NCBI RefSeq assembly: GCF_027706745.1
Contig: NZ_JAQFWP010000058.1
Span: 1-47,072, forward strand
Length of the DNA stretch: 47,072 nucleotides
Source of the DNA: Nocardiopsis suaedae
GTDB taxonomy: Bacteria; Actinomycetota; Actinomycetes; Streptosporangiales; Streptosporangiaceae
Reading direction: 5' to 3'
Every line of letters begins with the position of its first letter. The first letter of the stretch is position 1. This document shows, piece by piece, positions 24,821 to 24,971 of the stretch. A program made the translations under genes and the position numbers. Below the pieces are notes generated by a model, which saw only the letters and a program-made list of their open reading frames with translations, made no database searches and had not been told where the DNA came from.

Positions 24821-24866
24821 GGCCGCCTTTCGGGAGCGCCTTGTCGTCGAGGCGCTCCCGGCGGCC
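24821..24866 (-). promoter_or_regulatory. Hairpin hiding the rox ribosome-binding site
   Basis: On the mRNA: lower stem GGCCGCC (24860-24866) with GGCGGCC (24821-24827), 7 bp, and upper stem GGGAGCGCCT (24850-24859) with AGGCGCTCCC (24832-24841), 10 bp, loop of 8. The only unpaired bases on the 3' side, GAAA (24828-24831), and the first G's of the lower stem are the rox Shine-Dalgarno AAAGG, 9 bases before the ATG. The 5' upper arm can instead pair with codons of the leader ORF (24896-24905). Confidence 0.75.
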
Positions 24867-24870
24867 TACC

Positions 24871-24918
24871 TCAACCGCCCGACCGCGACCGGAAGGGGAG
24901 CACCCGTGCTGCGTTCAT
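24871..24918 (-). CDS. rox leader peptide
   Basis: 15-codon ORF encoding MNAARVLPFRSRSGG, absent from any normal gene call. It has a textbook Shine-Dalgarno, GGAGGTGA, 5 bases before the ATG, the best in the window. Its stop lies only 4 bases before the lower stem of the rox hairpin, so a terminating or stalled ribosome would cover the 5' arm. Three arginines in the last nine residues may matter for stalling. Codons 5-8 contain GGGTGCTCCC, which can pair with the hairpin arm GGGAGCGCCT (10 pairs, two of them G-U). Confidence 0.7.
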   Translation of the reverse strand: MNAARVLPFRSRSGG

Positions 24919-24953
24919 GGGTCTCACCTCCCGGGGTGGAGTCGCGGTCGTCA

Positions 24954-24971
24954 GGGGCAAGCTACAGGCCC
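24954..24971 (-). promoter_or_regulatory. Palindrome-like element and -10 box of rox; possible RAE
   Basis: In rox orientation GGGCCTGTAGCTTGCCCC, bounded by GGGC/GCCC. It contains TGTAGCTT, an extended TANNNT -10 box, about 40 bases before the leader ATG. Rifamycin-inducible genes are reported to carry a 19-bp rifamycin-associated element of broadly this GC-bracketed form; I cannot confirm the exact consensus here. Confidence 0.4.

Follow-up and report, generated by a model that had tools for sequence, protein, structure and literature searches.

What does the RNA ahead of a rifampin-monooxygenase homologue respond to? The window analyzed here, which is the whole 47,072-nucleotide stretch of Nocardiopsis suaedae contig NZ_JAQFWP010000058.1, carries a rox-like gene on its minus strand. 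A first-pass annotation, made from the letters alone, placed in front of this gene a 15-codon leader ORF with its own Shine-Dalgarno sequence (SD), a hairpin burying the rox SD, and leader codons 5-8 able to compete for the 5′ arm of that hairpin. All three are present in the sequence, and the locus is made up of the following parts, listed in the direction of transcription.

24992..24997, minus strand: WblC-like box GAAAAG (published consensus GAAAWY; the last base deviates)
24983..24988, minus strand: -35-like TGGAAC, 3 bp past the box (consensus TKGMNN)
24959..24964, minus strand: -10-like TAGCTT, spacer 18 bp (consensus TANNNT, spacer 16-19)
24951..24952, minus strand: predicted transcription start, 7-8 bp past the -10, by the rule in the accessible text of PMC7157823
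24881..24949, minus strand: hairpin A (segments 1 and 2), in which the leader SD region pairs with leader codons (from the fold; pairs kept in alignment A1)
24924..24931, minus strand: leader SD GGAGGTGA, 5 bases to the ATG
24871..24918, minus strand: leader ORF, 15 codons plus TGA, MNAARVLPFRSRSGG (ATG at 24918, TGA ending at 24871)
24896..24905, minus strand: segment 2, GGGTGCTCCC, leader codons 5-8, within the leader ORF
24850..24866, minus strand: segment 3, forming the 5′ arm of hairpin B; its partner is segment 4 in the off state and segment 2 in the on state
24821..24841, minus strand: segment 4, the 3′ arm of hairpin B, containing the rox SD (from sequence and fold)
24826..24830, minus strand: rox SD AAAGG, in the bulge and lower stem of hairpin B
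23374..24816, minus strand: rox-like FAD monooxygenase, 480 aa (ATG at 24816; NF033145 737.2 bits, curated cut-off 800)

Hairpin B (24866-24821) starts four bases past the leader stop and has 7+10 pairs with a 4-nt bulge, and GGGTGCTCCC (24905-24896) can pair with GGGAGCGCC, which starts at 24859. The RNA from 24949 to 24812 folds at -83.7 kcal/mol (z -5.46, with 0 of 200 shuffles as good), the part from 24875 to 24812 folded alone reaches z -6.30, and the fold predicted for the free window RNA is the off state. The three-segment switch described earlier was right in its mutually exclusive pairings; however, the element has four segments, and the leader SD itself lies in a hairpin that had been missed (24949-24881). 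The leader SD sequence GGAGGTGA occurs six times in the window, against about two expected. The promoter match would put the start of the RNA near 24951, upstream of 24866.

We read these parts, with fair confidence, as a ribosome-mediated translational attenuator of four segments with ErmC-like logic. A promoter of the WblC/WhiB7 type would make the RNA, whose off fold would pair segment 1 with segment 2, hiding the leader SD, and segment 3 with segment 4, hiding the rox SD. A stalled ribosome, at or beside the leader start codon in most of the family, would cover segment 1 and free segment 2, which would then capture the newly made segment 3 before segment 4 emerges and leave the rox SD open; a ribosome in mid-leader would cover segment 2 and keep the RNA off. 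The signal would be a drug- or stress-induced arrest of the ribosome. The window copy keeps these parts, and by simulation it would switch only with a ribosome near the leader end.

The first-pass annotation had looked to rox orthologues for a conserved leader ORF and for compensatory changes in both stems. Both the leader ORF and the stems remain conserved well outside the species, but covariation is weak. In alignment A1 (56 rows, the window and all 55 leader-type rox loci, L065 trimmed) 95.8% of cells can form the off pairs and 99.1% the on pairs, compared with 34-62% in slid controls, and RNAalifold predicted the on helix unaided. Doubly changed pairs are few in A1 (6 and 2 cells), and the off structure (0.033) is outscored in covariation by one slid control (0.038). 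The 28 diverse rows of alignment A2 gave 86.9% for off pairs and 87.5% for on pairs (slid controls 34-53%); in A2, 10 off pairs are doubly changed against 4.9 by shuffling, but slid controls reach 7-10, and double changes in the on helix did not exceed shuffles. Thus, what mainly supports the structures is conservation in the face of two competing constraints.

Conservation is also visible at the level of single segments and of the reading frame. The segment 2 core GGGTGCT is invariant across the 56 rows of A1; the invariance of GGGAG in segment 3 proves nothing there, since the search pattern required it. Among 139 elements found with covariance models, which were not selected by pattern, GGGTGCT is exact before 54/54 rox, 45/46 hydrolase, 10/10 GNAT, 20/21 methyltransferase, 1/2 patatin and 6/6 odd genes, and CGGGAGCGCC is present before 53/54, 44/46, 4/10, 6/21, 1/2 and 3/6 of the same classes. 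In the 105 NTG leaders of this covariance-model set, Val at codon 8 is GTG in 97/97 and Leu-9 is CTC in 98/98; a separate count of 140 leaders unchanged in codons 7-8 is circular because exact GGGTGCTC was required by the search. Of the 193 elements in which the distance from start codon to GGGUGCUC was measured, 171 have 19 nt (L188 and L192 have no measurable spacing). All 110 rox-type elements have an NTG start and a frame closed before segment 3 (for 56 of these the search itself had called for NTG), and the leader frame is closed between segments 2 and 3 in 163 of 165 rox, hydrolase and GNAT elements. Of these 165, 108 have stop codons in two frames in the interval separating segments 2 and 3, with the leader frame closed, and one more has them in three frames. 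Rox-type leaders range from 14 to 19 codons and the downstream half of the peptide shifts frame. Since the C-termini vary in frame and length, no arrest peptide is conserved.

Relatives of the element precede genes other than rox. Rfam gave no matches, either for 24600-25100 of the window at E ≤ 1 or for 8 of the 80 rox loci at the gathering score. Covariance model R1 found one real match in the window's own genome and matches in 15 of 396 genomes sampled across the phylum. Model R2 matched 16 of those 396. In the window's order it matched 253 of 345 genomes, in a large genus that we take for Streptomyces 253 of 295, and in the window's own genus 3 of 6. The named and other genome sets may count the same species twice. 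Two elements in the window's genus lie in genomes G524 (rox-type, with a short leader) and G526 (hydrolase-type). A scan of 72,556 plasmid records gave 43 matches, of which 32 are from Streptomyces; among the 20 plasmid matches listed, the feature beneath is rox in 6, an alpha/beta hydrolase in 11 and a hypothetical protein in 1, and 2 have none. In Streptomyces sp. SAT1 the annotated rox begins right behind the hairpin and no leader gene is annotated.

The 139 loci fetched are top-scoring or multi-copy matches, whose class counts give no prevalence: 54 rox or rox-like (51 rox plus the truncated, rox-like L137, L139 and L179), 46 hydrolase, 21 methyltransferase, 10 GNAT, 2 patatin-like and 6 odd or broken. 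Class names come from one or two scanned members each, namely TIGR03704 (PrmC-related) for L110, GNAT for L099, patatin for L103 and hydrolase for L097 and L106. Pfam gave no support above the cut-off for the latter two, and the hydrolase label rests on a match to esterase 4ao6 (E 1.1e-33) and on plasmid annotation. At eight loci (L113, L182, L217, L220, L222, L137, L139 and L179) the element is followed by a truncated or unrecognized frame, and the leader of L182 starts with ATA. The methyltransferase-type elements (L110, L185-L187, L189-L193, L223, L225-L235 and L254-L256) have the same leader SD and a frame that is open in nearly all, and their leader starts are never NTG: 14 ATT, 4 ATC, 2 GTT and 1 GCT (n = 21), with ATC in three more. 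From these comparisons, the window leader looks like one copy of a widespread RNA switch that is not local to the window.

Where a ribosome would have to stand was approached by folding with ViennaRNA under a 30-nt footprint, the P-site placed codon by codon and segment 4 not yet made. Accessibility of the rox SD was uninformative as a score, as the SD is partly bulged, and 2:3 pairing was followed. With the P-site on codon 1, this pairing forms in 45 of the 56 A1 elements and in 164 of 192 overall (rox 91/110, hydrolase 39/45, GNAT 9/10, patatin 2/2, methyltransferase 20/20, odd 3/5). The numbers drop to 7 of 192 at codon 3 and to none at codon 4, where the footprint covers segment 2. As a ribosome on the start codon has its edge near +16, the 19-nt spacing would place segment 2 just past that edge. 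A footprint over the 5′ end alone, far upstream, allows 2:3 in 25 of 56 partial transcripts, and about half of the elements switch near the leader end, so that in the model start-codon arrest is not the sole way to switch. In full-length RNA, 2:3 exceeds 0.5 in at most 2 of 56 elements whatever the ribosome position; the full-length RNA is thus predicted to be off, and the switch would have to be kinetic. Switching at equilibrium, a candidate considered, is unsupported because the full-length RNA stays off. Attenuation through a transcription terminator was likewise set aside, as no intrinsic terminator or terminator-like site was found here.

The window departs from the family in one respect. 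Its segment 2 lies six bases closer to the leader start than usual, and this 13-nt spacing in place of 19 is found in 2 of the 110 rox-type elements, the window and that of N. endophytica (L015; the leader in G524 is short as in this one). In a transcript ending 4 nt past the segment 3 core, the fraction of the window's segment 2 paired with segment 3 is about 0 for P-sites on codons 1-12 (0.00-0.01 on the start codon) and 0.60, 0.80 and 0.76 on codons 13, 14 and 15, and L015 likewise responds in simulation only at codons 13-15. The suggestion that a ribosome near the leader end could open the switch therefore finds backing in the model for this copy. Since the short-spacing copies respond only there, their trigger may differ or their switch may have decayed. 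Decay, in which a shortened leader is uncoupled and rox is merely kept low, would account for the altered spacing and the missing start-codon response; we regard it as unlikely but worth weighing, as the window and L015 keep the SD, the ORF and both hairpins, and in both a U-A pair of hairpin A's outer stem has become C-G.

A related explanation, close to what the first-pass annotation proposed for the leader stop codon, makes arrest near the leader end, through a nascent peptide or slow termination, the trigger, with the start codon merely loading ribosomes. It is in keeping with the window's response at codons 13-15, with 2:3 pairing in 60/110 rox-type and 26/44 hydrolase-type elements when the ribosome stands on the second-last codon, and with an R-S-R stretch in the window leader, which we take to be a macrolide arrest motif. 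We judge it distinctly unlikely, because the mean switching score is higher at the start codon in each of the five classes, the family conserves no arrest peptide, and the R-S-R codons 11-12 give 0.0 in the window. Very improbable, in our estimate, is an RNA element to which translation of the leader does not matter, for instance a ligand riboswitch or a protein site, with the ORF incidental. Such an element would explain why the RNA is conserved even where the peptide changes, as in the frame shifts of L023, L037 and the window, but it leaves the retention of SD, start codon, spacing and closed frame without a role, and 2:3 pairing without a ribosome forms in just 10 of 192 elements, 8 of which are of the methyltransferase type (8/20). 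What the ribosome would report on can be approached from the promoter and from the alternative control of rox genes.

The genome has seven WhiB matches, one of them with an RGRPRK tail, which we take to mark WhiB7. The accessible text of PMC7157823 gives the WblC promoter as GAAAWY-3-TKGMNN-16..19-TANNNT with a start rule, and describes the WblC/WhiB7 regulon as answering translation-targeting drugs. The window promoter deviates from this consensus by one base, in the box; the strict consensus is found in 1 of 56 rox-type promoters and a relaxed one in 21 of 56. A looser pattern, defined post hoc and controlled by simple letter shuffles (mean at most 0.03), occurs in 92/110 rox, 35/46 hydrolase, 9/10 GNAT, 0/2 patatin, 0/21 methyltransferase and 3/6 odd elements. 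A promoter of the WblC/WhiB7 type may thus drive the leader RNA.

The rifamycin-associated element (RAE), searched with a pattern that we assume to represent it, accompanies other rox genes. One scan of named genomes yielded at least 585 rox relatives; among the top 80, a leader of ~147 nt lies within 450 bp upstream at 55 loci, an RAE-like palindrome (up to 3 mismatches) at 14 and neither at 11; no locus among the 80 has leader and RAE together. In a tree of 81 proteins (the 80 loci together with the window and the second rox of its genome; L072, which has a short frame, was left out), one side holds 16 rows, 14 with RAE and 2 with none (support 100/100, bootstrap not settled), and the other 65 rows, 55 with leader, 9 with none and 1 with RAE (L050, at the base). 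The leader label changes 8 times on this tree, a number as low as which was reached in 0 of 500 shuffles (mean 22.3). Three leader-clade loci without leader retain pieces of it: in L086 the promoter and the leader SD stand immediately ahead of rox, L069 kept the promoter only and L068 segment 4 only. These look like natural reductions and are candidate losses of control. The 19-bp RAE palindrome (up to 3 mismatches) had no match on the window contig (C58). Elsewhere in the genome the best RAE-like sites lie at C54:11800 before a helicase-like gene (the protein is presumably HelR-like), at C71:13995 before the second rox, 62% identical to the first, and at C17:25088 before another monooxygenase; the genome's rifamycin response probably lies at these three loci.

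That the element senses rifamycin or a slowed RNA polymerase, to which the rifampin-monooxygenase homologue downstream would point, is hardly credible, given a promoter resembling the ribosome-drug type, similar elements before genes not known for rifamycin, and an RAE that goes with the other rox clade and with three loci of the window's own genome. The proposal that the leader senses slowed transcription-translation coupling is unsupported for the same promoter and because the best simulated position across the family is the start codon, and rifamycin sensing also fits poorly with the 14 RAE rox loci that lack the leader. Rifamycins block transcription initiation, which would remove the leader RNA and not slow its elongation. 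The signal is likely to be ribosome arrest, not slowed RNA polymerase.

How a rox gene came under such a switch may be read from its first codons. The closest solved chains of the window protein are rifampin monooxygenases, NF033145 matches it over its full length below the curated cut-off, and 16 columns separate the 64 rows of the leader clade from 15 rows of the RAE clade; we treat it as a rifampin-monooxygenase homologue whose oxidation of rifampicin is putative. An in-frame rox start past the hairpin exists at 54 of 55 leader-type loci (none at L072), within 16 nt of the hairpin upper arm in 52 and further on in L035 and L065. N-terminal Rox extensions of at least 15 aa occur at 37 leader-type loci, a count that includes L065 (misparsed) and L035 (internal start, 76 nt downstream). 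Of these, 32 matched the hydrolase set, and 29 remain after setting aside three whose top match was the rox-like L137; these 29 match the N-terminus of leader-bearing hydrolases, at best with 90.7% identity over 43 aa (L053 vs L158). In the hydrolase this stretch is part of the enzyme, since the 4ao6 match begins at residue 15. The Rox extension is down to 2 aa in some species, and the window's own is 8 aa. The hydrolase codons retained in many leader-type rox genes suggest that rox captured the switch, a hydrolase gene probably giving leader and first codons (up to 43) to rox, with the direction inferred.

Tentatively, and as something possible but short of probable, this can be drawn together as a portable switch of ~147 nt, worked by a ribosome on the start codon and handed on, across actinomycetes, between five or more gene families unrelated to each other. 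Rox would have left RAE control once and acquired the switch when it was fused in frame downstream of a hydrolase's first ~43 codons, and the methyltransferase branch with its AUU, AUC and GUU starts would monitor initiation fidelity. The element itself would be an undescribed family of antibiotic-response leaders and a handle on which genes answer ribosome drugs. A rifamycin-resistance homologue would be under ribosome sensing and not rifamycin sensing, which puts the substrate of the leader-type Rox clade in question, and the trace of fusion suggests a route of regulator capture.

No published description of this leader was found in a search mainly of the open literature, which is weak evidence of absence. 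In ErmC-type attenuation, 1:2 and 3:4 pairing is off and 2:3 pairing is on, the resistance-gene SD lies in segment 4, and ribosome arrest is the trigger. The element described here shares the segment logic, the SD in segment 4 and, by prediction, the arrest; by contrast, its leader SD sits within hairpin A, the ribosome is predicted to halt on the start codon and not far into the leader, its relatives are found ahead of unrelated genes, and it has no conserved arrest peptide. The RAE, described in the accessible text of PMC10194278 as controlling rifamycin-inactivating enzymes, was also found here before rox homologues; unlike the leader it is a 19-bp DNA palindrome, and it is absent before the window rox and from every leader-bearing locus of the 80. 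The whiB7/wblC attenuator has a uORF in the same stress network but, in the part of PMC11550727 available, acts via a transcription terminator, of which none was found here. Also comparable are the tiaA and are5sc leaders of Streptomyces coelicolor, for which the accessible text of PMC12421871 reports start-codon arrest by lincosamides, pristinamycin IIA and tiamulin and regulation of tiaA seemingly at translation. As described there, their peptides (MLV and MVGDDDISG) differ, their 5′UTRs are of the terminator/anti-terminator kind and they precede ABCF genes, whereas what they share with the present leader is that both are actinomycete uORFs with start-codon arrest, predicted in our case.
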